64,000 nt of DNA from Acidobacteriota bacterium (GCA_016184105.1 JACPDI010000032.1:19433-83432), one strand, 5' to 3'. Counted from the first letter of the stretch, positions 19,996 through 44,991 are shown. Notes: generated from the letters alone by a model not told the origin. A program made the numbers and translations.

Positions 19996-20350
19996 GTCCT
20001 CTCCTCCGAATGCGCACTCCAGGCGTATGTGGTACGTTTCGATACGGATAGCTGCGCGGTTTCAGCAGCTCCCGCGGAGCAGACCATTCTCGTTGGCATC
20101 CGAGGGCCGCGCCGGCCGTTCGACGGAACACGACGAAGGGCACGGCCGGGACGGTGGCCGTGGGGCTTGGGCAGTCGCCGCCTGCGGCAGGAATCGCATC
20201 GCGGCGGACAGCAGAAGCAGCAGTGCGGGGGGACGACGACACCGAGCGGGCAGCGCATCGTAGACCTCCGTGTGACGCGGGAGCGGGCACGCCGATCCCG
20301 AACAGGTGTTACAGACGTCACATTGCCCTGGGTGACGATCGGAGCGCGGA

Positions 20351-22403: not shown

Positions 22404-23147
22404 CTAGCGGAACCCGGCACGCCGGTCGTACTCGACCAGCTCGTAATACGTCTGCATGTAGCCCGTGCAGTGCGCTTTCAGGACGACGTACGAGCCGTCG
22501 CTGGTGACCCACGTGTGATACGGCGGGTGGCGATCGGTTCCCATGTACTCATCGTCCTCGTTCTCGCCGATGCGGAAGTGCAGCGCGTCGAACGTGCCCG
22601 CCTCGACGCTCACGCGCTCGCGGCCGACGAAGTACAGCTCGAGATCCGGATGGGTCAGCAGCGCAGGCCCGTCGGCGCCGCGGTGGTGGAGCGAGCACAT
22701 CAGGAACGACGGAACGATCTGCACCCCGGGCCCTTTGGAGGGGTCGTACTTGGCGGTCAGCCACGCGTCCGCCTGGATCGGGTGCGTGCCGAAGAACCCC
22801 GTGGGTCCGTCCAGGCGGCGCCGCTCCGAAATCCGCCCCTCGGCCACGGTGAACCCCTCGCACTCCGCCGCGTCCGGGGTGAACCGGTACCACGCCGAGC
22901 CGGCGAACCGGTCGTCGATCGAGATCTGCACGAAGGCGGAGGCGGGCCGCCACTCCCCGTCGACGTTCAGCACGACGTCGCGCAGCACGCGCGGCGAGTC
23001 CTCGTCGATGGCGCAGTGGGCGCGCAGCGCCCTGCGCCCGTCCGGGTGGAGCGTAATCGTGAAATCCTCGCCGCCGCGCACCCGGTCGAGCATGTGGGGC
23101 TTCTTCGACGTGTAGCGCAGCCGCCCGCGAATCGTATGGTGGTCCAT
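22404..23147 (-). CDS. Uncharacterised protein, island family X member 1
   Basis: A 247-residue, probably cytosolic, beta-rich protein that I cannot assign to a named family. It shares a C-terminal core with two other island proteins (at 33295 and 39371): E-x-V-x-V-x-A-G-x-F-D/x-A/C-x-H/x-F/Y, a short loop with proline, then W-V-T-x-D. Here the core reads ERVSVEAGTFDALHFRI and later YHTWVTSDGSYVVLKA. The N-terminal half (LRAHCAIDEDSPRVLRDVVL) aligns with the equivalent half of member 2. The last segment YMQTYYELVEYDRR parallels the DLEYVL ending of the others. Such a fold could bind a lipophilic ligand, but that is speculation. GAGGAC lies 5 bp before the ATG. Three copies in one island argue for pathway relevance. 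Confidence 0.75.
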   Translation of the reverse strand: MDHHTIRGRLRYTSKKPHMLDRVRGGEDFTITLHPDGRRALRAHCAIDEDSPRVLRDVVLNVDGEWRPASAFVQISIDDRFAGSAWYRFTPDAAECEGFTVAEGRISERRRLDGPTGFFGTHPIQADAWLTAKYDPSKGPGVQIVPSFLMCSLHHRGADGPALLTHPDLELYFVGRERVSVEAGTFDALHFRIGENEDDEYMGTDRHPPYHTWVTSDGSYVVLKAHCTGYMQTYYELVEYDRRAGFR

Positions 23148-23178
23148 CTGTCCTCGTTCACTCTCCGATGGGGCGCGC

Positions 23179-24513
23179 TCAGTTCGAGCCTTGCCTCGCG
23201 CGCGGTCGTGTGTCCTTGATGACCTGCCCGCCCTTGATCACGACGCTGACGTGTTCGAGCACGCGCACGTCGGCCAGCGGGTCTCCGCTGACGGCGACGA
23301 GATCCGCGTACCGGCCCGGCTCGATCGTCCCGACGCGATCGGGCCAGCCGATCGCGTCCGCGGCGCGAACGGTCGCCGCCTGGATCGCCTCCATCGGCGT
23401 CATCCCGCGCTGGACGAGGGAGGCGAACTCCCTCGCGTTCAGCCCGTGCGGGTAGACCCCGATGCCGGTGCCGAAGACGACCTTCACGCCCCCCTTGATC
23501 GCGCGGCCCAGGTTCTCGCCCGCGACGCTCGTGACCCGCCGCACCTTCTCCACGTAGGGATCGTTCGGCGCCGTGCTCTTGCCGTAGTGCTCGGCGATCC
23601 AGTCATTGAGATACAGCGTCGGCGCGAGCCAGGTCCCCCGCTCCTTCATCAGCGCGATCAGCGAGTCGTCGATGAACGACCCGTGCTCGATCGAATCGAC
23701 CCCCGCGAGCACCGCCTGGCGGATCCCTCGCGCGCCGTGTGCGTGCGCGGAAACCTTGCGCCCGAGCCGGTGCGCCTCCTGGACCAGCGCGCTCAGTTCC
23801 TCGTCGCTGAACTGCTCGGCGTCGGGCGAGTCACCTTTCGAGATCATGCCGCCGGTACCGCAGTACTTGATGACATCTGCCCCGTACTTCGCGACCTCGC
23901 GCACCTTGGCGATCACGGCAGACGGGCCGTCGGCGACGGCATCGTAGCGGTGCCTGAACTCGGGAGCGAGCAGCGTGTCGTCGCAGTGGCCGCCGGTCGC
24001 GCCAAGGGCCTGCGACGAGACGAGCAGGCGGGGACCGGGCAGCTCACCGGCGTCGATTGACTCCCGCAATGCGACGTCGGAGTAGCCGAACGAGGCGAGG
24101 TTTCTCACCGTCGTGAACCCCGCTTCGAGCGTGATGCGCGCGTTCTTGGCGCCGTACAGCGCCTGCCGCGGGACCGAGATCGAGAGGATCTTCAATCCCA
24201 CGTGGTCGGGGTCGGCGGTGATGTGGACGTGGGTGTCGATCAGGCCGGGCAGCACCGTCATCCCGGAAAGATCGATCACTTCCGCCCCCTCGGCCTTTGC
24301 GGCCAGCGCGTCGGCGGGACCGACCTCGCGCACGCGATCCCCTTCGACGAGGACCGCCTGGTTCGTCCGGACCGCACCCGCGCGCGCGTCGACGAGACGG
24401 CCGGCCTTGATCAGCACGCGGCGCGCCTCTCCGGCGCCGCGGACGGGAACGACGAGCGCGGCCGCCAGGAGCGCGGCGGCGGCCACCCGCAGAGACAACA
24501 CGCGATGAATCAT
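23179..24513 (-). CDS. Exported metal-dependent amidohydrolase with a substituted catalytic Asp
   Basis: A 444-residue amidohydrolase of the imidazolonepropionase/prolidase-like branch with a signal peptide (VAAAALLAAALVVPVRG). Metal-site motifs are visible: LIDTHVHITAD (HxH), ADVIKYCGTGG (bridging Lys), SAHAHGARG and DSIEHGSFI (two His). In this family the next ligand is the Asp of FGTDAGVYPHG; here the segment reads FGTGIGVYPHG, so the catalytic Asp is Gly. The rest of the barrel is well preserved. The protein may be inactive, use another base, or the base call may be wrong. It lies between the membrane protein at 24551 and the uncharacterised gene at 22404 in the same unit. Expected reaction if active: hydrolysis of an amide or dipeptide-like bond outside the cytosol. 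Confidence 0.88.
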   Translation of the reverse strand: MIHRVLSLRVAAAALLAAALVVPVRGAGEARRVLIKAGRLVDARAGAVRTNQAVLVEGDRVREVGPADALAAKAEGAEVIDLSGMTVLPGLIDTHVHITADPDHVGLKILSISVPRQALYGAKNARITLEAGFTTVRNLASFGYSDVALRESIDAGELPGPRLLVSSQALGATGGHCDDTLLAPEFRHRYDAVADGPSAVIAKVREVAKYGADVIKYCGTGGMISKGDSPDAEQFSDEELSALVQEAHRLGRKVSAHAHGARGIRQAVLAGVDSIEHGSFIDDSLIALMKERGTWLAPTLYLNDWIAEHYGKSTAPNDPYVEKVRRVTSVAGENLGRAIKGGVKVVFGTGIGVYPHGLNAREFASLVQRGMTPMEAIQAATVRAADAIGWPDRVGTIEPGRYADLVAVSGDPLADVRVLEHVSVVIKGGQVIKDTRPRARQGSN

Positions 24514-24550
24514 GGCATCACCCTCTTGTATGAAAGACGAAGAAGTACGC

Positions 24551-25078
24551 CTACCGGAATAAGTACGTGCTGCAGACGCTGCAGCGCAGGTTGAAGACGG
24601 AGAGGAGCGTCATCACGATGATGAGCACCCAGATCATGAAGACCCACGGCATGCCCCAGTTCATGTCCCGCCGGATCTCGGCGTTCAGCTCGGCGACGTT
24701 GGGGGCGCCCGCCTTGATGGCCTCGAGGTTCCGCAGGGCGGTTCCCGAGATCGGGATCAACACGACGGCGGAGATGACAATCAGCCCGTACATCAGGTGC
24801 TTCCAGCTCAGCCACGTGGTGGTGAAGACCGGCGTATCGGTCAGCCAGCACAGGATCAGGCCGACCGGCAGCGTCAGGATGAACAGGTACGCGACCACGG
24901 TGTCGACGCCGTGCATGACCCGGGCGCGCTCGAGCCGCTCGATGAGGTCGGCGCTGGAGTCCTTCACCTTCAAGTGCATCCAGAACACGATGAAGTCGAA
25001 CAGGAGCCACGCCGCCACCATGAAGGCGTGGATGCCCCTGAAGAAGACCTCAAGCGCGTGGTGCAGTTCCGGCGACAT
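24551..25078 (-). CDS. Uncharacterised four-helix membrane protein
   Basis: A 175-residue protein with four predicted membrane helices: about 10-33 (FFRGIHAFMVAAWLLFDFIV), 60-82, 88-112 and 143-165. Histidines lie in or near helices (SPELHHALEVF, GIHAF, FWMHLK, SWKHLMYG), which could hold haem or metal as in small cytochrome-b-like proteins; this is only a possibility. A CxxC pair near the C-terminus (RCSVCSTY) is unusual for such a protein. I do not recognise the family. It follows the 68-residue membrane protein by 18 bp, so the two probably form a complex, perhaps passing electrons from the island's flavin oxidases. Confidence 0.7.
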   Translation of the reverse strand: MSPELHHALEVFFRGIHAFMVAAWLLFDFIVFWMHLKVKDSSADLIERLERARVMHGVDTVVAYLFILTLPVGLILCWLTDTPVFTTTWLSWKHLMYGLIVISAVVLIPISGTALRNLEAIKAGAPNVAELNAEIRRDMNWGMPWVFMIWVLIIVMTLLSVFNLRCSVCSTYLFR

Positions 25079-25096
25079 CCTGACCTCCGAGTACGT

Positions 25097-25303
25097 TTAT
25101 CTTCGATGCCCGCCGCCGGCCGCGCGGCGGCGCCACAGCCGCCGGATGCGCGGCACCGCCGCGACGGCGCAGCCCAGGTACACCACCGCGTTCAGCAGGT
25201 TGACGACGCTCGGCGCGCCGGTGAGCGCCATCGTCAGCGCTGCCCCTCCCATGTAGGCGCCGCCACACAGGACGAACAGCCAGAAGAACCAGGCCATGAA
25301 CAT
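25097..25303 (-). CDS. Small two-helix membrane protein
   Basis: A 68-residue protein with two hydrophobic segments (about 3-28 and 33-52) and a very basic C-terminus (RIRRLWRRRAAGGGHRR) that should sit in the cytosol. No family is recognised. Tight spacing on both sides (16 bp to the lyase gene upstream, 18 bp to the four-helix protein downstream) and a glycine-rich first helix support a real gene working with its membrane neighbour. Confidence 0.65.
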   Translation of the reverse strand: MFMAWFFWLFVLCGGAYMGGAALTMALTGAPSVVNLLNAVVYLGCAVAAVPRIRRLWRRRAAGGGHRR

Positions 25304-25319
25304 TGCTGCCTCCTGGGCC

Positions 25320-26270
25320 TCACGCCGGCGTCGCGTCGGTCGGGTCGTTCCGGCGGGCGGCCGCCCGCGCGAACGCGGCGGCGCGCGTGCCGGCCGCCAG
25401 CACGTGGCTGGGCAGCGGGCGTCCCAGGAACGCCTGGATCTCGCGCGACGCGTTCATGATGGCTTCCACGTCGACGCCCGTGCGGATACCTGTTTCATCG
25501 AGCAGGTGCACCAGGTCCTCGGTGGCGATGTTGCCGGTCGCGCCGGCCACCACCGGGCACCCTCCGAGCCCGCCGATCGACGCATCGAACATCGTGACCC
25601 CTTCGTCGAGCCCCGCGAGCACGTTGCACAATCCCAGGCCGCGCGTATCGTGCAGGTGAAGCGACCACTCGATCCCGCCGAACTCCCACTGCAGCCGCCG
25701 CATCATCCGCGACACGGCCGAGGGGTGCGCGAAGCCGGCCGAATCGGCAATCGAGATGTGCCGGATGCCGATCTCGACCGCGCGCCCGGCCAGCCGCACG
25801 ACGGCCTCCGGATCGATCGGTCCCTCCAGCGGGCATCCGAACGACACGGCGATCACGAGCTCGACGGGAACCGATGCGGCCTTCGACTTCATCTCCTGCA
25901 GCATCGCGACCGACTGATCGACGGTCAGCCCGACGTTGCGGCGGTTGTACGTCTCGCTCGCGCAGATCACCAGCTTCACGGCGTCGGCGCCCGCGGCAAT
26001 CGCGTTCTCAGCCCCGCGTGCGTTCGGCACCAGCGCGACGCAGACGACGCCCGGGTGCCGCGCGATGCGCCGCATGACCTCGGCGGCGTCGGCCATCTGC
26101 GGGATGACCTTCGGGCTGACAAACGACGTCGCCTCGAGCTTCCGGATGCCGGCCGCGATCACCGCGTCGATCGTCTTCACCTTCAGATCGGTCGGGATGA
26201 GCTCGCGCTCCATCTGGAAACCGTCGCGCGGGCCGACCTCGACGATCGTCGCCGCCTCAGGAACGTTCAT
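25320..26270 (-). CDS. Hydroxymethylglutaryl-CoA lyase family enzyme
   Basis: A 316-residue HMGL-like TIM-barrel lyase. Diagnostic segments: VEVGPRDGFQ (catalytic Arg and metal-binding Asp), LEATSFVSPKVIPQMADAAE, ISIADSAGFAHP, HLHDTRGLG (metal-binding His pair) and the signature IGGLGGCPVVAGATGNIATE with the catalytic Cys. The family cleaves 3-hydroxy-3-methylglutaryl-CoA to acetoacetate and acetyl-CoA; homologues cut other 3-hydroxyacyl-CoA thioesters. Next to CoA-transferases, cleavage of a pathway-specific hydroxyacyl-CoA is likely. It overlaps the isochorismatase-like gene by 14 bp, implying translational coupling. All catalytic residues are present. Confidence 0.92.
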   Translation of the reverse strand: MNVPEAATIVEVGPRDGFQMERELIPTDLKVKTIDAVIAAGIRKLEATSFVSPKVIPQMADAAEVMRRIARHPGVVCVALVPNARGAENAIAAGADAVKLVICASETYNRRNVGLTVDQSVAMLQEMKSKAASVPVELVIAVSFGCPLEGPIDPEAVVRLAGRAVEIGIRHISIADSAGFAHPSAVSRMMRRLQWEFGGIEWSLHLHDTRGLGLCNVLAGLDEGVTMFDASIGGLGGCPVVAGATGNIATEDLVHLLDETGIRTGVDVEAIMNASREIQAFLGRPLPSHVLAAGTRAAAFARAAARRNDPTDATPA

Positions 26271-26910
26271 CGCTGCTCCCGGCCGCTCCGGCGAGGTGCT
26301 GGAGAACCGCCCGGATCGACACCACGTCGGCGTACTTGCCGTCCAGGTCGAGCAGGTTGGCGCGGTGCGGCCCCGGGGCGCGATCGCCGACGCACTCGCG
26401 AGGCACGATCACCCGGTAGCCGTACTGCAGCCCGTCCACCGCCGACGCGCGCACGCACCCGCTCGTCGTCACGCCCGCGACGATGAGGGTGTCGACGCCG
26501 CGCGCGGCCAGGTGCGAGGCGAGCGGCGTCCCGAAAAACGCGCTCGCGAACTGCTTCTCGAGCAGCGTCTCGTCCGGGCGCCGGCGCAGGCGCTTGTCGA
26601 GCGCCACCCACCGGGACCCGCGCACGAGGTATCGCAGCGAGGGCACCTTCTCGACGAAGACGCCGGCCTCGCGGCACTCGGCGTCGTAGGCCGTGGTCGT
26701 GAAGAACACCGGGAGGCCTGCGCGCCGGGCGGCCGCGAGGAGCCGCCGCGTGGCCGAGACTTCCGCGTCGAAGTTGCCGGCCAGCGGCGAGCGCAGGTCG
26801 GTGAATCCGACGATCAGGTCGATCACGAGGACCGCCGGCCGCCGGCCGAAGCCGACGCGCCCCAGGAAACCTTTCCGGCGGTACAGCGCGCGCGTGGCAT
26901 CAGCACTCAT
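26257..26910 (-). CDS. Isochorismatase-fold amidase, N-carbamoylsarcosine-amidase-like
   Basis: A 217-residue cysteine hydrolase. The triad is visible as Asp in VLVIDLIVGFTD, Lys in LLEKQFASAFFGT and Cys in VTTSGCVRASAVDGL. The wording TSGCVRAS around the nucleophile and the length are like N-carbamoylsarcosine amidohydrolase, which removes CO2 and NH3 from a carbamoyl amino acid. Next to HyuA/HyuB (N-methylhydantoinase-type) genes, this makes a carbamoyl-amino-acid deamidation step plausible, as in the creatinine/methylhydantoin route. Other isochorismatase-like amidases (nicotinamidase-, maleamate-type) remain possible. It starts 9 bp after the CoA-transferase gene and overlaps the lyase gene. 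Confidence 0.87.
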   Translation of the reverse strand: MSADATRALYRRKGFLGRVGFGRRPAVLVIDLIVGFTDLRSPLAGNFDAEVSATRRLLAAARRAGLPVFFTTTAYDAECREAGVFVEKVPSLRYLVRGSRWVALDKRLRRRPDETLLEKQFASAFFGTPLASHLAARGVDTLIVAGVTTSGCVRASAVDGLQYGYRVIVPRECVGDRAPGPHRANLLDLDGKYADVVSIRAVLQHLAGAAGSSDERS

Positions 26911-26919
26911 GGCCGGTCC

Positions 26920-28140
26920 TCAGATGACCCCGTCGGCGTGCAGCCGCGACCGTTCTTCGTCGCTGATGCCGAGCAGGTCGCCATAGACTTCGGCATTGTG
27001 CGCGCCCAACGCCGGGCCGGCCCAGTCGGTGCCGCCCGGCGTGGCCGAGAAGAACGGCGTGAAGGTCGGCAGCAGCACCGTGTCGGACGGGTCGGAGGGC
27101 AGCGGCACGCGCTCGAACAGGCCGCGCGCGCGGAAATGCGGATCGTTGATCTGATCGGCGACCGAGTAAATCGCGCCCGCCGGCACTTCCGCCCGCTCGA
27201 GCGCCTCGAGCACCTCGCCGAAGGTGTGGGCGCTGGTCCAGGCGGTAATCGCCTCGTCGATCTCCTGTTCGTACTGCACGCGATCGTTGTTGTGCGCGAA
27301 GCGGGGATCGGCCGCCATGTCATCCCGGCCCGCGGCTGTCATCAATCTCCGGAAGATGCTGTCGCCGTTGCCGCCGATGATGATGTACTTGCCGTCCTTG
27401 CACGGGTACGTGTTGGTCGGCACGATGCCCGTCAGCTTCGATCCCTGGCGGTCGCGGATGAGGCCCGTCTTGTCGTACTCGGGCACCATCGACTCCATCA
27501 GATTGAAGATGCCTTCGTAGATGGCGACGTCGATCACCTGCCCTTCACCCGTGGCCTTCACGTCGCGGTGGTACACCGCCGTCAGGATGCCGAGCGCGGC
27601 GTGCAGCCCTGCGATGGTGTCGCCGAGGCTCAGGTTCGGCCGCACCGGGGGGCGATCCGGGAAGCCGCAGACCTGCCGCAGCCCGCCGGCTCCTTCGGCC
27701 ACCGACGCGTACCCCGGCTTGTGGCTGTACGGGCCGGTCTGTCCCCACCCCGACACGCGGCACATGATCACGCGCGGGTTGATGCGCGTGAGATCCCCGG
27801 GGCCGAGTCCCCATTCCTCCATCCGGCCGGGACGGAAGTTTTCGAGCACCACGTCACAGTGCTCGACGAGGCGACGGACGAGGCTGCGCCCTTCCGGTTT
27901 GCGGAGGTTCAGCGTCACGCACCGCTTGTTGCGCCCGAGGATGTACCACCACAGGGCGGTACCTTTGTACATCGACCGCCACGTGCGCAGCGGATCGCCG
28001 CCGTCGGGCGGCTCCACTTTGATGACGTCCGCACCGAACCACGCCAGCAGCACCGAGGCAAACGGCCCCGCCAGCAACTGCCCCATCTCGAGGATGCGGA
28101 GCCCCTCGAGCGGACGCCGTTTGCCGCCTTCCCCAACCAT
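26920..28140 (-). CDS. CaiB/BaiF-family CoA-transferase (class III), copy 1
   Basis: A 406-residue class III CoA-transferase. Recognisable are the N-terminal LLAGPFASVLLAWFGADVIK, the Arg-rich NKRCVTLNLRKPEGR, ENFRPGRMEEWGLG, and LGDTIAGLHAALGIL, whose Asp is at the position of the catalytic residue that forms the acyl anhydride in formyl-CoA transferase. It should move CoA between two carboxylic acids. It sits between HyuB and the amidase, so the acid freed by ring opening may be its acceptor. Start ATG at 28140; the longer in-frame extension upstream is out-of-frame HyuB sequence. Donor and acceptor cannot be read from the sequence. Confidence 0.92.
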   Translation of the reverse strand: MVGEGGKRRPLEGLRILEMGQLLAGPFASVLLAWFGADVIKVEPPDGGDPLRTWRSMYKGTALWWYILGRNKRCVTLNLRKPEGRSLVRRLVEHCDVVLENFRPGRMEEWGLGPGDLTRINPRVIMCRVSGWGQTGPYSHKPGYASVAEGAGGLRQVCGFPDRPPVRPNLSLGDTIAGLHAALGILTAVYHRDVKATGEGQVIDVAIYEGIFNLMESMVPEYDKTGLIRDRQGSKLTGIVPTNTYPCKDGKYIIIGGNGDSIFRRLMTAAGRDDMAADPRFAHNNDRVQYEQEIDEAITAWTSAHTFGEVLEALERAEVPAGAIYSVADQINDPHFRARGLFERVPLPSDPSDTVLLPTFTPFFSATPGGTDWAGPALGAHNAEVYGDLLGISDEERSRLHADGVI

Positions 28141-28175
28141 CAACTCGCCCCTTCGTCCCGGAACAGCGGCGAACG

Positions 28176-30017
28176 TCAGCCGTTCGCCTTTACAATCCCC
28201 ATCGGTTCCGGTACGGGCCCGAAGGTGAACGTCCCTGCTGCCGGCCGCGACTCGCGGATCTGCCGCCGGCACGCCTCGGTCGCCGCGGCATCCAGCGCGT
28301 ACGTCTTCTTGTCGACGATGACGCCGTAGTCGCGCCGCGCCTTCTCCACCGAGACCAGCCGGCGCGCCACGTCTGCCGCGACCCGCTCGGCCGGCCGATC
28401 CAGCGGATCCTTCCACCCGCCGCCACCTGCCGTCCGGTAGATCAGCCGGTCTCCCTTCTTCACGGGCACCTGGGAGACCTTCGATCGCAGCGGCACTTTC
28501 TCGCCGCTGACGCGCACGAGCGTCTTCGTGCTGGGCGCGCCCGGCAGCCCGCCGAGGATCCCCCACGGGTGCGATCGCTCGCGGTCGTCGTGGATGGCGA
28601 CCTCGCCGTCCGACTCGAACCGGTACACCTTGTGGACGCCGTTGCCGCCGCGGTGGAACCCGGCGCCGCCCGAGTCGATGAGCGATCCGTACTCGAGGAC
28701 GGTGATCGGGTAGTAGCTCTCGAGGTACTCGCTCGGGATGTTCTCGAAGAGCGGCCACCACGAGTGGGCGTCCATGCCGTCGCCGATCGGCCGCCCCGGA
28801 ATGCCGCCGAAGGAGATCTCCATCAGGTGGAAGAACTCGCCCGACGCGTCGTACCCGTTGTAGAGCAGGTACGGCGAGGTGCCGTAGCCGGCCGCCGTCG
28901 AGAGCTCCGGCGCGCCGTGCCCGAGCGCGCCGCCGAGCACGTCGAACAGCCGCGACAGCGCGTGCGTGCGGCAGCCGAGCGGCGCGGGGAACTTCGGGGA
29001 GACCAGCGATCCGTCCGGCATGATGACGTGCAGCAGCGGGTAGAACCCGTCGTTGAAGAGGATCTGGGGGTCGAACACCATGATCAGGTAGACCCCGATG
29101 AACATCTTGAACATCTCCTCGTTCAAGAAGAAGTTGATCGGGCCCGGGGCCTGCGGGTCGGTGCCGGTCCAGTCGAAGTAGGCCTGGTCCCCTTTCCGCC
29201 AGATCGTCAGCTTCATCTTGTACGGTCCGTTGCCGCGCCCGTCGTCGTCGATGAAGTCCTCGAAGCTGACCTTCTTCTCCGGCAGGTTCTGCAGGATCAA
29301 CTGGCGCATCATGCGGCGGGTGCGATCGAGCAGCGCCTCGCAGGCGGAGAGGTAGGTCGGCGTGCCGAACCGCCTGCAGATTTCCTTGACGCGCTTCTCC
29401 GCCGTCCGGCACGCCGCGATGATCGCCATCAGGTCGAAATAGTTCATCGTCGGCATGCGGCTGTTGTTGAGGATCAGATCGAGCACGTCCTCGTTCAGCT
29501 TGCCGCCGGCGAAGAGCTTCACGGGCGGGATGCGCGTGCCCTCCCCGAAGATCGTCGTGGCGTCGGTCGGCAGCGATCCCGACACCGGCCCGCCGATGTC
29601 GATCGTGTGGCCGAACTGCGATCCCCAGCCGACCAGCTCGCCGTCGACGAAGATCGGCAGGAGCACCATCCAGTCGTTGATGTGCGAGATCGCCCCCTTG
29701 CACTTGTACGGGTCGCTGAGCAGGAAGACGTCCCCCTCGTGGATGCCGCGCTTCCACTCCTGGATGAAGCCGGCGATGTAGGAGCCGAACTGGCCGACGA
29801 CCATCCGGCCGTCCGGCGTCGCGATCAGCGGGAACCCGTCGTGCTGCTCGCGGATGACCGGCGACATCGCCGACCGGAACAGCGTCGTGTCCATCTCGTG
29901 GCGCGCGTTGCGCAGCGCGTTCTCGATGATGTCCAGCGTGATCTTGTCCACGGGCGGGAGTTTCCGGCCCGCCGCCTTGCCTCTTGCCTTTGCCTTTCGC
30001 GCCAGCATCGTTGCCAT
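28176..30017 (-). CDS. hyuB: Hydantoinase B/oxoprolinase family subunit
   Basis: A 613-residue HyuB-type subunit. After a lysine-rich leader comes DKITLDIIENALRNARHEMD, then SPVIREQHDGFPLI, LSDPYKCKGAISHINDWMVL, FGHTIDIGGPVSGSLPTDA and VLGGALGHGAPEL, all typical of the family. HyuB works with HyuA as an ATP-dependent enzyme opening 5-oxoproline, N-methylhydantoin or similar cyclic amides; related pairs carboxylate acetone or acetophenone. GAGGAG lies 8 bp before the ATG at 30017. The 23-bp gap from hyuA indicates one transcript and a complex. No extra subunits of the carboxylase type are in view, which favours the hydrolase role. Confidence 0.93.
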   Translation of the reverse strand: MATMLARKAKARGKAAGRKLPPVDKITLDIIENALRNARHEMDTTLFRSAMSPVIREQHDGFPLIATPDGRMVVGQFGSYIAGFIQEWKRGIHEGDVFLLSDPYKCKGAISHINDWMVLLPIFVDGELVGWGSQFGHTIDIGGPVSGSLPTDATTIFGEGTRIPPVKLFAGGKLNEDVLDLILNNSRMPTMNYFDLMAIIAACRTAEKRVKEICRRFGTPTYLSACEALLDRTRRMMRQLILQNLPEKKVSFEDFIDDDGRGNGPYKMKLTIWRKGDQAYFDWTGTDPQAPGPINFFLNEEMFKMFIGVYLIMVFDPQILFNDGFYPLLHVIMPDGSLVSPKFPAPLGCRTHALSRLFDVLGGALGHGAPELSTAAGYGTSPYLLYNGYDASGEFFHLMEISFGGIPGRPIGDGMDAHSWWPLFENIPSEYLESYYPITVLEYGSLIDSGGAGFHRGGNGVHKVYRFESDGEVAIHDDRERSHPWGILGGLPGAPSTKTLVRVSGEKVPLRSKVSQVPVKKGDRLIYRTAGGGGWKDPLDRPAERVAADVARRLVSVEKARRDYGVIVDKKTYALDAAATEACRRQIRESRPAAGTFTFGPVPEPMGIVKANG

Positions 30018-30040
30018 GGCTTCGCTCCTCGTGACGGCGT

Positions 30041-32113: not shown

Positions 32114-32126
32114 GGCTGTTCAACCT

Positions 32127-33167
32127 CTAATCTCGTGCGATGAGTCCCCGCTCGACCAGCCGATCGATGGTCCGGCGGTGGGCCTCGACCAGCTGCTCGC
32201 GATCGCGAATCCCCTCTGGAAACTGGTCCGGCGGGCAGAACGAGTGCGCCGCGTACATCGGCGCGTACAGCTCGAAGCGCTGGCGCGCGACGACGTTCTG
32301 CATCCCGGGGTGGCAACGACGGCGGCGCAGGGCGGCGACGTCGATTTCGGCGTGGGCCGTGACGGTCTCCCCCTGTTCGGCTTCGGCGAGCACCAGCCCG
32401 CGGTCGTCGATGATCTTCGAGTGCCCGTCCGCCGAGTGCTCCGGCATCGCGGTGCCGGCTATCCCGGCGGTGTTGGCGGAGATCACGTAGGCGGCGTTCT
32501 CGACCGCGCGCGCGACCTTGGCCACCTGCTTCGGCATGCCGGCGTGCCCCGCCACGTCCGACGTCGAGTGGACGAAGATCTCGGCGCCGTGCATCAGGAG
32601 GCAGCGCGCGACCTCGGGGTACAGAATCTCCTCCGAGGCGATGGCCGCCAGCCGTCCGAGCGGCGTGTCGGCGACCGGGAACAGCTCGCGGAGCGAATAG
32701 CGCTCGCGGTACCGCGTCCACAGGTCGTGCGGCGAGAGCGCGTACAGGCTGTTCAGCCGCCGGTATTTCAGCGCGAGCCCCGCGGGACCGACGATCCAGC
32801 TCGCCTGGAAGTACATCCCCGGCCACTCCGGATCCGCCTCGTAGCTGTTGCCGGCGATCCAGATCCCGGTGGCCGCGGAGAAGGCGGCCACGCGATCGAT
32901 CTCCGGCCCGGGGATGCGGATGCACGCCTTCTCGATCCACGTGGCGGCGGATTCGCCCGCGGGGAACGAGGTCAGGACGTACTCGGGCAGGACCACAAGG
33001 CGCAGATCGGAGCCGAGGAACGACGCGGCCGCGCGCGTCGCCGCGAACACCCGCTCGAGCGCGGTGTCGATGTGCCGCTGGCTCGCGGCGCGATCGGGAC
33101 ACCCGTTCACCGCGTGGCACCGGAGCTGCATCGCCAGCGCGCGGTACGGCTGCACCCCCGCGCTCAT
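32127..33167 (-). CDS. Nitrilase-superfamily protein lacking the catalytic Cys
   Basis: A 346-residue carbon-nitrogen-hydrolase fold. The Glu (VVLPEYVLTSFP) and Lys (LKYRRLNSLYALSP) of the Glu-Lys-Cys triad are recognisable. The nucleophile segment, normally C-Y-D-x-x-F-P-E, reads SEEILYPEVAR, so Cys is Ser and the next two positions are Glu. Downstream segments (GAEIFVHSTSDV, RAVENAAYVISANTAGI) are well kept. Either this branch uses a different mechanism or it is a pseudo-enzyme, perhaps a scaffold. It is the first gene of the long minus-strand unit and has the strongest operator-like dyad 44 bp upstream. ATG at 33167 chosen; the in-frame extension above overlaps that operator. Context suggests amide or carbamoyl chemistry. 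Confidence 0.8.
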   Translation of the reverse strand: MSAGVQPYRALAMQLRCHAVNGCPDRAASQRHIDTALERVFAATRAAASFLGSDLRLVVLPEYVLTSFPAGESAATWIEKACIRIPGPEIDRVAAFSAATGIWIAGNSYEADPEWPGMYFQASWIVGPAGLALKYRRLNSLYALSPHDLWTRYRERYSLRELFPVADTPLGRLAAIASEEILYPEVARCLLMHGAEIFVHSTSDVAGHAGMPKQVAKVARAVENAAYVISANTAGIAGTAMPEHSADGHSKIIDDRGLVLAEAEQGETVTAHAEIDVAALRRRRCHPGMQNVVARQRFELYAPMYAAHSFCPPDQFPEGIRDREQLVEAHRRTIDRLVERGLIARD

Positions 33168-33210
33168 CGCCGCGCGTCCTCCGCGGTGGCCCGCCCGCCG
33201 CAAATCGGGC

Positions 33211-33236
33211 AACTTGTCATGATGTTATAACAAGTT
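33211..33236. promoter_or_regulatory. Operator-like dyad, site b (first unit)
   Basis: A perfect 10-bp palindrome TGTTATAACA (33223-33232) overlaps an outer perfect 7-bp dyad, AACTTGT (33211-33217) and ACAAGTT (33230-33236). It is the most symmetric site of the TTGTTAT family here and lies just upstream of the 11-gene minus-strand unit starting at 33167. Confidence 0.65.
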
Positions 33237-33294
33237 GACTTGTAGACCAGGACCGGCCGGTTGTCAAGCCGGAGCCGCGGCGCCACGCCCGCAT

Positions 33295-34092
33295 TCACGG
33301 CTCGCGCACCCACGACGTGAGCACGTATTCGAGATCCAGCTCTCCCCAGTCGTAGCGCACCAGGATGTCGTCCTCGCCGGTCACCCACACGTCCGACGGC
33401 GGCGACGGAACCGCGTCGGACTCGAACCGGTAGTGACGACACGTGAAGGTGCCGGCCGGCACCGTGATCGTCTCCTCCCCGAGCGCGCGCACGCGCAGCG
33501 TCTCGAGGCGCCCGAGCGGGCCGTCGGTGCCGTTCCAGCGCGTCGAGGTGTTGTAGACCGGCAGCGCCTGCTCCCCGCCGCGCTCCGCGTCGTAGGCCCA
33601 GAACGGCCATCCGTCCAGCATCACGGCGTGCGTCGTCACGTGGAAGCGCGGCGGGACCGGCACGACCTGCACGGTGTGCCCGGTGTCAGCGGTGTCCGTC
33701 GTGATGTGAAGCTGGTCTCCGGCCGTGCGGAAGTAGCCGGTGCCGACGAGGCGGTCGCGCAGCTGCAGCCGGACGAAGGCATCGCGCGGCCGGCGGTCCG
33801 CGCCGAGCGTGTAGGTGACGTCGCGCACGAACTGCGAGTCGGCGGTCATCGCGACGCTGCGCATCGTGCGAGACCCGTCCCGGTTGCGCGTCAGGCTCCA
33901 GTGCTCGACGCCGCGCTCGCGGCCGCTGGAACGCTGCCGGTAGGCAAGCCGGCCGTACTGGTACGACACGCCGGCGGCCGCCGAGACCGTGGGCGCCGGG
34001 GCGCCGGGGCGGGGCGTCTGCGCCGCCACGAGCGGCCCGCCCGCCGCCAGGGCGATCAAGAGGAACAGGAAAGGAAGACGGGTTCGCATCAT
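33295..34092 (-). CDS. Exported uncharacterised protein, island family X member 2
   Basis: A 265-residue protein with a clear signal peptide (LPFLFLLIALAAGGPLVAAQ), so probably periplasmic. The mature part is beta-rich and shows the full island-family core: GPLGRLETLRVRALGEETI, VPAGTFTCRHYRFESDAV, SDVWVTGEDDILVRYDWGE and LDLEYVLTSWV. The region from VMLDGWPFWAYDAERGGEQA to the end is closely similar to the whole of the short paralogue at 39371; the N-terminal part (RDAFVRLQLRDRLVGTGYF) parallels member 1 at 22404. I do not recognise a named domain; the fold may be a small ligand-binding beta structure. It ends the TonB/MFS/VOC unit. The ATG at 34092 begins the signal peptide. Confidence 0.78.
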   Translation of the reverse strand: MMRTRLPFLFLLIALAAGGPLVAAQTPRPGAPAPTVSAAAGVSYQYGRLAYRQRSSGRERGVEHWSLTRNRDGSRTMRSVAMTADSQFVRDVTYTLGADRRPRDAFVRLQLRDRLVGTGYFRTAGDQLHITTDTADTGHTVQVVPVPPRFHVTTHAVMLDGWPFWAYDAERGGEQALPVYNTSTRWNGTDGPLGRLETLRVRALGEETITVPAGTFTCRHYRFESDAVPSPPSDVWVTGEDDILVRYDWGELDLEYVLTSWVREP

Positions 34093-34143
34093 GTCGTGAG
34101 CACTCCGTGGTTGGGCGCCGCCGGGGGGTCTCGCCCCCATCGC

Positions 34144-35175
34144 TCACCGCCGCACCGGTCGTTCGTGAATCTCGATCCGCAGCCCGGCGGGCGACCGCAG
34201 GCCGAGCACCCGGCCCTCTCCGAAGATCGTCCGTACCTCGCCGTGCTCGGTCACGGCGCGTCCGGCCCGCGCCGCGGCGGTGCGAATGGGCGCCAGGTCG
34301 CGCGCCATGAACGCCACGCCGAGCGCGCCGGTGGCCGGGGGGCGCGCCCGCGCGTAACGGTCCTCTCCGTCCACCCCTTCGTACCGGACGATCTCGATTC
34401 GCCCGAACGGCGAACGGCGCGAGCCGAGCAGCCGCATGTCGAGCCCCGCGCCGGGCGGCAGGCCCACCATCTGCTCGATCTCCGGGCCGGTCAGCCGGTG
34501 CGCCATCACGAGCGGGAGCCCCAGAACCGACTGGAAGAACTCCGCTTCCACCGCCCCATCGCCGACCACCGTGACAATCGACGAGACGCTCGTGTAGCCC
34601 GCGGCCGTGTACGGCAGCCGCTCGCCGACGACCTCGGCGAGCACGATGTTCGTCTCGTCCGGGCCGGGCATCTGGACCTCGCGCACGCGATCGGCGTCGA
34701 TCGGGTACTCGACCCAGCGCGAGCGGAAGCGATGTCCCAGCGCCAGGAGTTCCTCGTACCGGTCCGGGAGATCGCGGGCGCGCACGTCCAGGTTCTTTGG
34801 CGCGCGCGCGGTGGGCGCCGCGCCGGCGCGGACCGGCGCCTCGGGATCGCGGAACTGCACGAAGTGAATGCGCCCGCACGCCTCGCCCGGCAGCCCCACG
34901 AGCGCCTGCGCGACGATGCGATCGGGCGCGAGCCCCCAGAGCCGCGCCAGCTCCGGATCGGCGCCGCGCCGCTCGGCGATGACCGTCAGGCCAAAGCGCC
35001 GGACCCACAGGTCGAGCGCGCGCTCGAGGTCGGCCACGCCGACGGTGATGTGCGAGGCCGCCTCGCCGATCACCACGGGCGAGTCCGCCGCGTGCAGCAT
35101 GGCGATAGCCGTCAGCGCCACCAGGACCGCCGCCGTGGACGCGGCGCAGTGCCCCGCGCCCGCGTGGGGCGCCAT
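34144..35175 (-). CDS. Two-domain VOC (glyoxalase/dioxygenase-fold) protein, copy 1
   Basis: About 343 residues with two vicinal-oxygen-chelate domains. The first begins ASHITVGVADLERALDLWVR and keeps the usual first metal His; it ends DETNIVLAE with a plausible Glu. The second begins SSIVTVVGDGAVEAEFFQSV without the His and ends SPAGLRIEIHE. VOC enzymes use a divalent metal for dioxygenation, isomerisation or C-C cleavage; the mixed ligand set leaves activity open. The N-terminal 30 residues from the ATG at 35175 look like a weak signal peptide; ATG at 35100 is the alternative and would give a cytosolic protein. No clear ribosome site decides. It lies 30 bp after the MFS gene and is one of four two-domain VOC proteins in the island. 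Confidence 0.8.
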   Translation of the reverse strand: MAPHAGAGHCAASTAAVLVALTAIAMLHAADSPVVIGEAASHITVGVADLERALDLWVRRFGLTVIAERRGADPELARLWGLAPDRIVAQALVGLPGEACGRIHFVQFRDPEAPVRAGAAPTARAPKNLDVRARDLPDRYEELLALGHRFRSRWVEYPIDADRVREVQMPGPDETNIVLAEVVGERLPYTAAGYTSVSSIVTVVGDGAVEAEFFQSVLGLPLVMAHRLTGPEIEQMVGLPPGAGLDMRLLGSRRSPFGRIEIVRYEGVDGEDRYARARPPATGALGVAFMARDLAPIRTAAARAGRAVTEHGEVRTIFGEGRVLGLRSPAGLRIEIHERPVRR

Positions 35176-35204
35176 CTGGGGCGGGCGGACGGGGGAGCGG
35201 CCGG

Positions 35205-36539
35205 TCACGCGCGAGGCGCCGCCAGCGCCTCGTCCTCGCGAACGCCGATCGGATCCGCGGGGAGCAGGAGAAAGAACATGCCTGAGACGAAGATCGGCAG
35301 GATGCCGCAGATGGTGTACGCGAGCGGCCAGCCGAGATGCGCCACCGCGTACGACAGCGCGAGCGGGCCGCTCGCCACGCCGAGATTCACCGCGAGCGAG
35401 CCGGAGAAGGTCACACCGGTGGCGCGCAGGCGGGCGGGAAAATTCTCGGCGATGAAGGTGAATTTCACCGCCGTGGTCCCGTAGAAGAAGACCGTCATCA
35501 GGCAGAAGGCCACCGCGGTCGCCGCCCACGACTCGGTCCACCAGATGAGCGCCGCGAACGCCACCGACCCGAGCCACGCCCAGACGATGATCGTGTTGCG
35601 GCGCTTCATCACGAACTCGCCGACGATCGCCGCGAGCACGTAGCCGATGGCCCCGATCCCGTACGACCAGCCGACCAGCCACACGGAATCGGCCGGAGCC
35701 CACCCGCGGTATTCCTGGAAGTACGCAGTCAGGAGGATCGTGGACCCGTACGCGAACACGTGGAAGTACTCGCCGAGAAACAGCACGACGGTGCGGAAGC
35801 GCATGTCGGGCGCGAACAGGTCGCGCATCGACGGCTGGACCGCGACGCCGCCGCCCTCCACCGCCGCGCTGCGCGCCGCCTTCGCCGCCTCGAACGCCGG
35901 CGTCTCCCGCAGGTACCGCCGAATCACCCAGAGGTACGGCACGCTGAGCAGGCTGACGAAGAACACCTGCCGCCAGCTCCAGCGGACCATCACGAACACG
36001 GCCAGCTGCGAGGCGAGGAACCACCCGATCGGATAGCCGATCTGCAGGATGCCGGTCAGCAGGCCGCGGTACCGCGGCGGCGACTCCTCGACGACGATCG
36101 TGCCGACGACGGGCGACATGATGCCGCCCATCGCGAAGCCGGTCGTGCGCAGCACCACCATCGACCAGGTGCTGCGCGCCCAGTACATGGCCGTGACGAA
36201 GAGCGATCCGACCAGCATCGACGTGCTGAACACCGCCTTCCGTCCGGCACGATCGGTGAGCACGCCGAGGGAGGCGATGCCGAGCCCGGCGAGGCTGTAC
36301 GTCACGGCAATGTACCAGCCGCGCTCGATCACCGACCAGCCGAGTTCCTTCGAGATCTGCGGGAGGACGAAGGCGAAGAGCGCCTGGTCCATGTTCTCGA
36401 GGCTGACGCCCGCGAGGCAGATCAGGAACGCGCGCGCCGGGTAGCCGCGGACGGCGCTCCACAGCCCCTCGGCCGCCGGCGGGTGGGACGGGACGGCGGT
36501 GGCCGCCGCGGGCATGCGGATCGGGTTGGCTTCAGACAT
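35205..36539 (-). CDS. MFS transporter, organic/aromatic-acid type
   Basis: A 444-residue major-facilitator protein with 12 predicted helices. LTDRAGRKAVFSTSMLVGSL carries the loop 2-3 signature (D-R-x-G-R-K/R), and the large cytosolic loop lies between helices 6 and 7. Helix-5 region LLTGILQIGYPIGWFLASQL resembles the metabolite/aromatic-acid symporter branch. It is encoded between the TonB receptor and the VOC protein, so substrate crossing the outer membrane by TonB may be taken into the cytosol here by proton symport. The start MSEANPIRMP follows a 25-residue soluble tail before helix 1. Substrate is inferred only from context. Confidence 0.88.
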   Translation of the reverse strand: MSEANPIRMPAAATAVPSHPPAAEGLWSAVRGYPARAFLICLAGVSLENMDQALFAFVLPQISKELGWSVIERGWYIAVTYSLAGLGIASLGVLTDRAGRKAVFSTSMLVGSLFVTAMYWARSTWSMVVLRTTGFAMGGIMSPVVGTIVVEESPPRYRGLLTGILQIGYPIGWFLASQLAVFVMVRWSWRQVFFVSLLSVPYLWVIRRYLRETPAFEAAKAARSAAVEGGGVAVQPSMRDLFAPDMRFRTVVLFLGEYFHVFAYGSTILLTAYFQEYRGWAPADSVWLVGWSYGIGAIGYVLAAIVGEFVMKRRNTIIVWAWLGSVAFAALIWWTESWAATAVAFCLMTVFFYGTTAVKFTFIAENFPARLRATGVTFSGSLAVNLGVASGPLALSYAVAHLGWPLAYTICGILPIFVSGMFFLLLPADPIGVREDEALAAPRA

Positions 36540-36619
36540 CCAGAGGGCTCAGGGACGACACGTGCGGGACGCCCGGGTTCGGGCCGGGCGCCCCGCATGG
36601 GATTATCCGTCGCGCCGGC

Positions 36620-39214
36620 TCAGTTGAACGCGTAGCGGATCGTCACGCTGACGCGGCGCGGCGGGTTCAGGTAGACCGACTGGAACCTCAGCGGCGCGCC
36701 GAACGTGAAGCTGCCGATCTGATACTGCTCGTCCCAGATGTTCTCCACGACCCCCGTGACCCGCACGCGGCCGTTCCGCGTCTCGTAGGCCACCGACAGA
36801 TCCCCGATCTGGAACCCGTCTTCCGACCCCGCCTCGGGGTTGCAGAACGAGTGGTAGAACTTCGTCTTGCCGCTCACGGTGCCGGCGATCGACCAGGAGC
36901 CGTTCAGCAACGCCTGGGGGAACATGTACACGCCGGTCAGGCTGTAGCTCTGGTGCGGCGACATCTTCAGCTCCAGCTTCTTGCTCCCGGTGCCGTACGG
37001 CGCGCAGTCCACCGCCTGGTTGAAGTTCACCGACGTGAATTCGGTGCGCAGCAGCGACAGCTGGCCGCTCAATTCGAGCCCCTGCACCGGGGTCGCCCGG
37101 GCCTCCAGCTCGAGCCCCTTCGTCTGCACGTCGCCGATGGTGAAGCGGCGGAAATTCCCTTCCGGATCCGTGCCGCTCCCCTGCAGATCTTTCCAGTCGT
37201 TCAGGAACGCGGCCAGGTTCACGCGCAGCCGGTGCTGCAGCCAGTCGCTCTTGATGCCCCCTTCGTAGGTCCAGAGGGTCTCCTGCGAGATCGGCTGCAG
37301 GAACGGGATCTGGCCGGCGGTCATGTTGCGGCCGTCGAACGCGCCGGACTTGAATCCCCGGCTCGCGCTCGCATACAGCATCTGGCCCCCCGAGAACGCG
37401 TAGTCCACCGCGAAACGCGGCGTCAGGCCGCTGAACGACGGCGTGAGGAACCGCTCGACCGCGCCGGTGCGCGCGCCCGCCGGATCGGTGGGCAGGCACG
37501 CCCGGCTGGCGCCGTGGAGCGAACGGCCGTCGGCCGAGTAGCAGGCCAGCACCGGCGCGCCGCTCGCCTGCAGCAGGTGGTGCGCGTAGTCCTTCTTGTC
37601 GTCGGTGTACCGCACCCCGATCGTCGCCGACAGACCGGAGGTCGGCTGCACGGTCACGTTGCCGTAGACGGCGTTGCTGTCGGTGGTCAGCGCCACGTCC
37701 GAGTAGTTGCCGCCGCGCGCCGCGCGGAAGACCAGGTTCTCGGTAATCTGCCGGTTCCGCTCGTGGAAGTAGAAGTACCCGCCGATCACCCGAACGTGCG
37801 GGCCGAGCTGCCCTGAGACCTGCAACTCCTGGCTCCACTGCTCCTGCTTCTGATCCTGGTACAGGTGGAAGAGCGGCAGCTTCGCGAGCGCCGTGCCGGC
37901 CGGGAAGGTGTTGTTGCCCACCTGCCCGTCGGCATCGACGAGGAACAGGTTGTACATGTTCCGGTACGCCGTCACCGACTTGAGGACGTAGTTGTCGCCG
38001 ATGGCGTAGCTGATCGTGCTCGATGCACCGCGCTGGAAGATGTCGTTGAGCGGGTTCGTCAGGTCGGAGGCCAGCGTGTGGACGTCGGTGTCGCCGTCGA
38101 CCTGCTGCGCGAGGTCATGGTTGCCCATGCCGGCGCCGTTGACGACCGGCGGCTGCGCGATGAGCCCGAGCGCATAGCCGGGCGTCGAGCGCTCCTGCAG
38201 GTAGTCGCCGACGAGCAGGATGTTGAAGTTCGGCACCGGCAGGAGCCGGATCGACGCGCGGCCGCCCCACAGGTCCTGGTCGTTCACCTTCCGGCCGTCA
38301 ACGATGTTCCGGTCGTAGCCCTCGTGGTAGCGGCGCATGCCGGCGATCTGGAGGCTCGTCTTGCCCCCGGCGATCGGCACGCTGACCGACCCCTTGAAGT
38401 CCGCCTGCGTGTACTGGCCGAAGGTGCCTTCGAGGTGCGCCATCACCTTGTTGCCGGGCTGTTTGCTCACCAGCTTGATCGCGCCGGCGCTCGTGTTCCG
38501 TCCGTAGAGGGTCCCCTGCGGGCCGCGAAGCACCTCGATCCGATCGACGTCGTACAGGTCGAACTGCGCCCCGATCTGCCGCGGGATGTACACGTCATCG
38601 ACGTAGATGCCGACCGGCGTGTCGGACGTGAAGAACGACTCGTCCTCGCCGATGCCTCGAATCGCCGCGCGCGAGCCGCTCGACGTCCCGGTGTTCTTCT
38701 CCATCCACAGGTTGGGTGTCTGATACGAGACCTGCTGGACGTTGGCCACCCGCTGGACCTCGAGGGCGCGGGACGTGAGCGCGGTGACCGACACCGGCAC
38801 CTTCTGCAGGTTCGCCTCGACGCGCTCGGCGGTCACCGTCACTTCCTCGACCGCGAGGGCGAAGAACTGGACCGGCGGCGTGCCCGTCGGGTCGAACACG
38901 AGCTGCACGTTGCCGTTCAGCGGCAGGTCCACTTCCGCCTCGTACTTCTTGTCCTCGTAGGCAAACACGACCGTCTGCGGCCCGGCACCGGACGGCCTGA
39001 CCGTCGTGTCGCCGCGAAAGACGTGGGTCTCCGCCTTGCCATCCGGTGTGGTGAAAGTCACGGTGACCTCGCCGCGGGGCACCACGGAGATGTTCACCGT
39101 GGCGCTGGCCCGCGCAGGAGCCGCCGCCAGCAGCACGCCGCCCGTCACGAGCAACCCCGCGACCAGGCGCGCGGCACGCCGCCCGCCCGCGGCGATGCGC
39201 AAGTTCTTCGACAT
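36620..39214 (-). CDS. TonB-dependent outer-membrane receptor, island copy
   Basis: An 864-residue receptor. After the signal peptide (LLVTGGVLLAAAPARAS) is a beta domain of about 90 residues resembling a peptidase-regulatory or PEGA-like fold, then a TonB-box-like AVEEVTVTAERVEAN and a plug (VSYQTPNLWMEKNTGT, AIRGIGEDESFFTSDTPVGI, LRGPQGTLYGRNTSAGAIKL). The barrel ends in VSVTIRYAFN. The plug wording is that of receptors for small hydrophobic or siderophore-like ligands in Proteobacteria, unlike the Oar-like receptor at 14274. GGGGAGG lies 6 bp before the ATG at 39214, and an operator-like dyad lies 35 bp further up. It probably imports the island's substrate across the outer membrane. Confidence 0.92.
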   Translation of the reverse strand: MSKNLRIAAGGRRAARLVAGLLVTGGVLLAAAPARASATVNISVVPRGEVTVTFTTPDGKAETHVFRGDTTVRPSGAGPQTVVFAYEDKKYEAEVDLPLNGNVQLVFDPTGTPPVQFFALAVEEVTVTAERVEANLQKVPVSVTALTSRALEVQRVANVQQVSYQTPNLWMEKNTGTSSGSRAAIRGIGEDESFFTSDTPVGIYVDDVYIPRQIGAQFDLYDVDRIEVLRGPQGTLYGRNTSAGAIKLVSKQPGNKVMAHLEGTFGQYTQADFKGSVSVPIAGGKTSLQIAGMRRYHEGYDRNIVDGRKVNDQDLWGGRASIRLLPVPNFNILLVGDYLQERSTPGYALGLIAQPPVVNGAGMGNHDLAQQVDGDTDVHTLASDLTNPLNDIFQRGASSTISYAIGDNYVLKSVTAYRNMYNLFLVDADGQVGNNTFPAGTALAKLPLFHLYQDQKQEQWSQELQVSGQLGPHVRVIGGYFYFHERNRQITENLVFRAARGGNYSDVALTTDSNAVYGNVTVQPTSGLSATIGVRYTDDKKDYAHHLLQASGAPVLACYSADGRSLHGASRACLPTDPAGARTGAVERFLTPSFSGLTPRFAVDYAFSGGQMLYASASRGFKSGAFDGRNMTAGQIPFLQPISQETLWTYEGGIKSDWLQHRLRVNLAAFLNDWKDLQGSGTDPEGNFRRFTIGDVQTKGLELEARATPVQGLELSGQLSLLRTEFTSVNFNQAVDCAPYGTGSKKLELKMSPHQSYSLTGVYMFPQALLNGSWSIAGTVSGKTKFYHSFCNPEAGSEDGFQIGDLSVAYETRNGRVRVTGVVENIWDEQYQIGSFTFGAPLRFQSVYLNPPRRVSVTIRYAFN

Positions 39215-39248
39215 GGTCCGCCTCCCCTGAGCGTTCATAGAGCCGTAA

Positions 39249-39268
39249 TTGTCACGTTGTTATGACAA
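39249..39268. promoter_or_regulatory. Operator-like dyad, site c
   Basis: TTGTTATGACAA (39257-39268) has TTGT/ACAA arms, and TTGTCA (39249-39254) with TGACAA (39263-39268) forms an overlapping perfect 6-bp dyad. It lies 35 bp upstream of the TonB receptor start. Same family as sites a-g. Confidence 0.6.
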
Positions 39269-39370
39269 CAGGAGCCTTTACCACGTGGCGGCGGTTTGTC
39301 AAGACCTTTGAGAACCCGCCGCCCCGGGGCGTGCGCCGCGCCCAAGACCCCTCTGTTGGCGCCCTTCACG

Positions 39371-39736
39371 CTAACTGCCGGTGCGGGACGGCTCGGTCGC
39401 GAGCGACGCCAGCACGTATTCCAGATCCGTTTCCCCCCAGTCGTACCGCACGAGGAGGCGGCTGTCCCCCGTGACCCACACCTCGGAGGTCGGCGACTGC
39501 ACCCAGTCCGAATCCAGCCGGTAGCGCTGGCACGGGAAGACGCCGGCCGGAACGGTGACCGATTCGTCACCGACGTACCGGAAGCGAACCGTCTCCATGC
39601 GGCCCAGCGGGCCGTCCGTGCCGTTCCACTTGCTCGACGTGTTGTACACGGTCAGGATCTGCTCGCCGCCGCGCTGATGGTCGTAGACCCAGGACGGCCA
39701 CCCGTCGAAGATCACTGCGTGCGGGTGCTTCGACAT
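39371..39736 (-). CDS. Short paralogue, island family X member 3 (C-terminal half only)
   Basis: A 121-residue protein corresponding to the C-terminal half of member 2 at 33295. Matching blocks: VIFDGWPSWVYDHQRGGEQ, VYNTSSKWNGTDGPLGRMET, DESVTVPAGVFPCQRYRLDS, SEVWVTGDSRLLVRYDWGET and DLEYVLASL. There is no signal peptide, so it would be cytosolic, unlike member 2. It is not a decayed fragment: AGGAGG lies 5 bp before the ATG at 39736, and it has its own operator-like site at 39766-39785. It seems to be transcribed alone. The self-contained half suggests that this core is an independent fold. Function unknown; conserved Trp, Tyr and the WVT-x-D segment are candidate ligand-site residues. Confidence 0.8.
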   Translation of the reverse strand: MSKHPHAVIFDGWPSWVYDHQRGGEQILTVYNTSSKWNGTDGPLGRMETVRFRYVGDESVTVPAGVFPCQRYRLDSDWVQSPTSEVWVTGDSRLLVRYDWGETDLEYVLASLATEPSRTGS

Positions 39737-39765: not shown

Positions 39766-39785
39766 TTGTCCTATTGTTATAAGAA
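39766..39785. promoter_or_regulatory. Operator-like element, site d
   Basis: TTGTTATAAGAA (39774-39785) with an upstream TTGTC at 39766. The right half is degenerate (AGAA for ACAA). It lies about 37 bp upstream of the short family X gene at 39736 and nothing else is transcribed from it. Confidence 0.55.
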
Positions 39786-42174: not shown

Positions 42175-42192
42175 TGTTATATTAATATGACA
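42174..42192. promoter_or_regulatory. Operator-like palindrome, site e (divergent promoter)
   Basis: Positions 42175-42192 form an 18-bp palindrome, TGTTATATTAATATGACA, with one mismatched pair. It contains TTGTTAT starting at 42174 and touches the ATG of the alcohol dehydrogenase on the minus strand. It lies 36 bp before the aldehyde dehydrogenase start on the plus strand, so one bound dimer could control both. Confidence 0.6.
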
Positions 42193-44971: not shown

Positions 44972-44991
44972 TTGTACTGTTGTTATTACAA
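44972..44991. promoter_or_regulatory. Operator-like dyad, site f (divergent promoter)
   Basis: TTGTTATTACAA (44980-44991) has perfect TTGT/ACAA arms; TTGTA (44972) and TACAA (44987) form an overlapping outer dyad. It lies between the minus-strand CoA-transferase (start 44926) and the plus-strand amidohydrolase operon (start 45062). Confidence 0.6.

Follow-up and report, generated by a model that had tools for sequence, protein, structure and literature searches.

We find that the window, the whole 64,000-nucleotide stretch of Acidobacteriota DNA analyzed here, carries an island of breakdown genes with three proteins of one family, P0002, P0003 and P0004. We tentatively propose, with confidence somewhat short of even, that P0002 and P0003 are LolA/YmcC/EipB-type barrel proteins acting as cofactor-free enzymes in the island's breakdown pathway, with P0004 as a retained half. 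The three genes lie where an earlier note on this DNA had placed them, all on the minus strand:

22404-23147, minus strand: P0002, 247 aa, without a signal peptide; family type B, grouping with sphingomonad plasmid proteins
33295-34092, minus strand: P0003, about 265 aa with a predicted Sec-type signal peptide; family type A
39371-39736, minus strand: P0004, 121 aa, half-length sister of P0003, with the H-x4-D..S core and the AG-x-F motif

The P0003 reading frame extends to 34140 (281 aa), with the ATG at 34092 the likely start. GAGGAGG precedes the ATG of P0004, giving it the strong ribosome site of its own that the note had described, and a longer GTG reading frame, to 39805, would overlap the promoter.

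The three proteins are significantly homologous to one another and form a single family, with P0004 matching the C-terminal half of P0003 at 67% identity over 111 aa (E 6e-56) and P0002 matching P0003 at 31% identity over 215 aa (E 6e-20); a search of the organism's own genome (4.24 Mb) finds no fourth copy. Our alignment of 16 rows falls into three types, with type A comprising P0003, P0004 and six other acidobacterial proteins, type B comprising P0002 together with five sphingomonad proteins at 41-46% identity to P0002, and type C consisting of two Novosphingobium proteins; types A and B are connected by profile comparison at E 8.5e-30. The tree joins P0003 and P0004 as sisters (support 95/88) and groups P0002 with proteins from sphingomonads (98/94), which indicates that the island's set arose from two lineages brought together plus one duplication. 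A recent triplication of all three genes is ruled out by the placement of P0002. The earlier view of three members of one family holds, with the nuance that P0003 and P0004 are a recent pair and P0002 a deeper paralog from a separate, old lineage. With P0003 as the sole query, a relative is found in one other genome among the 193 searched in the class, while the alignment query finds relatives in 8 of 396 genomes of the phylum, the organism's own genome and one weak match included; eight sphingomonad plasmids carry a relative, at 25-31% identity to P0003. The weak match, an outlier of the family search, is a long reading frame (G425, L025:3541-5325) in which a thioredoxin-like region precedes a C-terminus resembling DUF3108.

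The family had been described as unrecognized, and this holds insofar as no Pfam or NCBIfam model scores above cut-off for P0002, P0003 or P0004, NCBIfam giving no match at all. It needs qualifying insofar as Pfam DUF3108 (PF11306) is matched below threshold and the pJE1 homolog is annotated as a "DUF3108 domain-containing protein". Against a DUF3108 gathering cut-off of 26 bits for the whole-protein score, P0002 and P0003 each reach 20.2 bits (E 0.0006) and P0004 16.1 bits (E 0.01); the best match among the 16 rows has an E-value of 2.4e-5, and every family member with a printed score falls under the curated cut-off. Comparison by hhalign of the type A and type B profiles, which are narrow, with seven true DUF3108 proteins gives E 0.084 and 0.026 over short stretches. 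By these scores the island family would fall outside DUF3108 as formally defined; the AG-x-F hairpin and the fold make a distant relationship plausible. DUF3108 and DUF6134/DUF3108_like proteins share with the family the E-x-V-x-V-P-A-G-x-F hairpin motif and a YmcC-like fold (3fzx, 4fvs). However, the canonical DUF3108 proteins that we inspected mostly have signal-like starts, which the island family mostly lacks, and show D-x-L-x-A-L/I-Y/F-x-x-R at the position of the island family's H-x4-D. Canonical DUF3108 proteins occur in 10 of 20 related genomes, this one included. The profile search did not yield the well-characterized domain that would have spoken against a new family, because DUF3108 is itself uncharacterized; the passages on DUF3108 available to us concern other matters, and our literature search found no paper on plasmid pJE1 or on the island's gene set.

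These sub-threshold matches, together with the envelope role of EipB, a periplasmic integrity protein of the same fold encoded in an envelope gene locus (PMC10787603), raise the possibility that the three are ordinary envelope proteins of canonical DUF3108 type that merely happen to lie in the island. We regard this as very unlikely: the family looks cytosolic except for P0003, canonical DUF3108 gives no significant score in the profile comparison, the operators and synteny described below connect the family to catabolic genes, and the organism already has two true DUF3108 genes on another contig.

Structure prediction places P0003 in a known fold. The AlphaFold2 model, built on four sequences, has about 15 strands curving into a barrel; its mean pLDDT is 71, with most barrel strands at 75-95. 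The signal peptide and parts of segment 175-207 are uncertain, and with this moderate confidence the model matches LolA/YmcC/EipB-type beta-barrels over most of the domain. The best solved match is EipB (DUF1849, Brucella, PDB 6NTR; Z 16.9 over 201 residues), followed by a DUF1089 protein (2h1t, Z 14.8), YmcC-like lipoproteins (4fvs, Z 11.4; 3fzx, Z 10.7), VioE (Z 9.9) and, more weakly, the LolA/RseB/ependymin-related group (Z about 7-9.5). A sequence search of solved structures gives nothing significant, 4fvs appearing through its AGTF motif at E 0.36, and no family member has a Pfam match to DUF1849. We set aside low-probability Foldseek matches (TM 0.14-0.15) to a 25-phosphosteroid lyase and kievitone hydratase. 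P0002 is expected to adopt the same fold as P0003 given their 31% identity over the whole length. P0004 modeled alone reaches a pLDDT of only 45, as could be expected of a half barrel without its partner or with too few sequences.

The likeness to each of these relatives has its limits. EipB is 7% identical to P0003 and belongs to an envelope locus, whereas the neighbors of the island family are catabolic. LolA/LolB, RseB and ependymin-related proteins share the curved beta-sheet and hydrophobic pocket, but are lipoprotein or lipid carriers or stress sensors of the periplasm or lysosome. VioE, of violacein biosynthesis, is a cytosolic enzyme of LolA-type fold (PMC6363788); it is biosynthetic and 7-8% identical, and its likeness to P0003 is one of fold. 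The shared fold fits the ligand-binding or chemical role suggested in the earlier note; that this role is central to the pathway is not supported.

The core motif given there is right in substance, reading ETITVPAGTF..WVTGE..DLEYVL in P0003, ESVTVPAGVF..WVTGD..DLEYVL in P0004 and ERVSVEAGTF..WVTSD..TYYEL in P0002, except that P0003 has I-x-V for V-x-V and P0002 ends in T-x-Y. A longer core, H-x4-D-G/A-W..YD..G-x-Q..S..G-x-DGP-L, is common to all three. In P0003 numbering, the residues H171, D176 and S199 are retained in all 16 rows, across three subfamilies, as are a glycine, the A-G-x-F motif and a leucine. The three polar residues lie in the segment between the barrel halves, within the part kept by P0004 and modeled in P0003 at a pLDDT of about 50; the H-x4-D motif is absent from the true DUF3108 proteins inspected.

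A hydrophobic ligand pocket is what unites the LolA-type superfamily (PMC6363788), most of which binds or carries lipids. This counts against an enzyme and is consistent with a non-catalytic binder or shuttle, in which P0003 would pass a hydrophobic substrate from the TonB receptor through the periplasm to the MFS permease while P0002 holds a cytosolic intermediate. The apparent export of P0003 and its probable co-transcription with the MFS, VOC and TonB genes agree with such a scheme. That the polar residues H, D and S are strictly conserved, however, suggests more than hydrophobic binding, and a shuttle is less needed in the cytosol, where nearly all relatives appear to reside. We consider a binder a real possibility, if less likely than not, and slightly favor a cofactor-free enzyme because H/D/S are invariant, almost no member has a signal peptide and the neighbors are catabolic; conservation of H171, D176 and S199 can only suggest VioE-like catalysis.

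As to compartment, a signal stretch is absent from 15 of the 16 rows, with P0003 the sole carrier (the start of one relative, L031, is uncertain) and the other full-length type A members without one. The different cellular locations noted earlier are thus borne out as predictions, P0003 alone having the hydrophobic stretch. The VOC protein at 34144-35175 also begins with a hydrophobic, signal-like stretch and is probably exported too, and an amidohydrolase (23179-24513) has a signal-like N-terminus; the starts of these three proteins suggest that some of the catabolic pathway may take place in the periplasm.

Three genes near P0003 are probably co-transcribed with it:

34144-35175, minus strand: VOC (glyoxalase-fold) protein, Pfam Glyoxalase, directly before P0003
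35205-36539, minus strand: MFS transporter; three other genomes encode relatives of it, 51-71% identical, close to a family member
36620-39238, minus strand: TonB-dependent receptor, assigned by sequence and by BLAST to an annotated TonB receptor in pTomTYG65b

Comparable gene sets surround relatives elsewhere. In one acidobacterial genome (G017, L009), nitrilase, VOC, family member and MFS genes are adjacent, with CaiB, CitE-like and cyclase genes close by, and its nitrilase, CitE-like, cyclase, MFS and CaiB proteins are 48-73% identical to their counterparts in the window. Two more genomes (G481 and G314) have MFS relatives (51% and 67%) and VOC genes near the family member, and another (G406) has VOC and aldehyde dehydrogenase (59%) genes. 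The type B member carried by plasmids pJE1 and pTomTYG65b occurs with isochorismatase, HMG-CoA lyase, CaiB, FAD oxidoreductase, MFS, TonB receptor and alcohol dehydrogenase genes, the same kinds of genes as in the window. Two of the six acidobacterial relatives (G439 and G453), which count against our proposal, have no such catabolic set around them; neighbors are mostly, not invariably, VOC, MFS, FAD-oxidase, hydrolase or TonB genes. The idea that members always sit beside VOC, CaiB or TonB genes thus fails, and the association is frequent, not constant. Recurrence in similar clusters elsewhere is supported, and its spread over acidobacterial and sphingomonad-plasmid clusters points to a real step of a breakdown pathway.

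Several other features of these neighborhoods were observed. The G017 contig (C257) is a partly syntenic version of the island from another family of the same class. The pJE1 and pTomTYG65b clusters (L030 and L032) are closely similar to each other and also hold two leuCD pairs and two polysaccharide deacetylase genes. In two acidobacterial genomes the family member has a small DUF3598_N protein next to it or close by (L024:9644-10087, E 2e-6; L022:17240-17686, E 4e-9), and a small membrane protein without a Pfam match is encoded near family members both in the window (24551-25078) and at L022:4970-5455 (30% identity, E 5e-21).

A shared set of operators ties the family genes to the rest of the island. 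The palindrome TTGTTATAACAA, allowing up to one mismatch, has four sites in the 4.24 Mb genome, each reading on both strands and all inside the island, while its reversed control has no match in the genome. These four and one weaker site are:

39774-39785: P0004 operator, minus-strand sequence TTCTTATAACAA, 37 bp upstream of the ATG, with TTGACA beginning 33 bp upstream of the operator
39257-39268: operator of the TonB-receptor unit, TTGTCATAACAA; TTGACA 34 bp before
33222-33233: operator ahead of the nitrilase-hyuA-hyuB-CaiB run, with TTGACA 34 bp upstream of the operator
44980-44991: operator between CaiB2 (minus strand) and amidohydrolase 2 (plus strand); TTGACA 42 bp before
42174-42185: weaker operator-like site with two mismatches, between the alcohol and aldehyde dehydrogenase genes

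A further weaker operator-like site is seen at 20348. The restriction of the operators to the island and the near-fixed TTGACA spacing agree with the shared regulon proposed in the note, and the island may well be a self-contained regulon. The P0004 site is, as claimed there, an operator of its own, and TTGACA at 33-34 bp before the operator at three sites suggests that P0004 has its own promoter of the same build as the regulon promoters. Two regulators are candidates:

20436-21368, plus strand: RpiR/SIS-type regulator, Pfam SIS, RpiR HTH just under cut-off; candidate for the operators
51620-52402, plus strand: GntR/UTRA (HutC-type) regulator, alternative candidate, with homologs in three sphingomonad clusters

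Palindromes of the form TTGT...ACAA are characteristic of the HutC-type GntR group, a lead at most to the regulator.

Whether P0004 functions is a question separate from enzyme versus binder. It may be a decaying duplicate, a gene fragment without its own function still transcribed through a surviving promoter, and we hold this to be a substantial prospect, if not quite an even one. The first half of the barrel is missing, the half may not fold, as the poor model indicates, P0004 is more distant than P0003 from every outgroup, and no half-length copy is found in any other genome searched. An open frame alone proves nothing, because in neutral simulations of one branch of 40 changes the frame stays open in 32%. 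Against decay, the operator and TTGACA stand at the regulon spacing, the ribosome site is strong, every invariant residue is retained, and changes are biased to third positions, with GC3 at 0.91. The P0003/P0004 pair has dN 0.22 and dS 0.72, with differences of 22/15/44 by codon position, a pattern indicative of constraint, part of it that of P0003; the putative regulated promoter and the retained core are better evidence for P0004 than the open frame. The best reading is a duplicated half, either kept under selection or slowly decaying. The different lengths need not imply different functions, as P0004 is a truncated sister of P0003.

On our preferred reading, that of a cofactor-free enzyme, a compound would enter through the island's TonB receptor, and P0002 and P0003 would serve one step of its breakdown by turning over, as VioE does, a pathway intermediate held in the barrel, with His171, Asp176 and Ser199 as working residues. 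The ancestral protein would have been cytosolic, with P0003 gaining its signal peptide in its own genome and now exported, probably together with its VOC neighbor; P0004 would be a duplicate in which the first half is gone and the conserved core survives under its own regulon promoter. A bolder version, which we consider unlikely, is a new LolA/YmcC-barrel enzyme family with an H-x4-D...S active segment, catalyzing an undescribed cofactor-free catabolic step in Acidobacteriota and on sphingomonad plasmids, with the P0004 half-barrel as a separately regulated dimer or partner.

Lipoprotein carriers and envelope proteins are the chief known examples of this fold, to which the family would add a branch that is catabolic and mostly cytosolic; the family may also help to locate related breakdown clusters in two phyla. 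Because the family has an operator set of its own, the putative regulon and its inducer can be tested directly, and P0004, with what appears to be a dedicated promoter, lends itself to asking whether a half-barrel of this type works alone.
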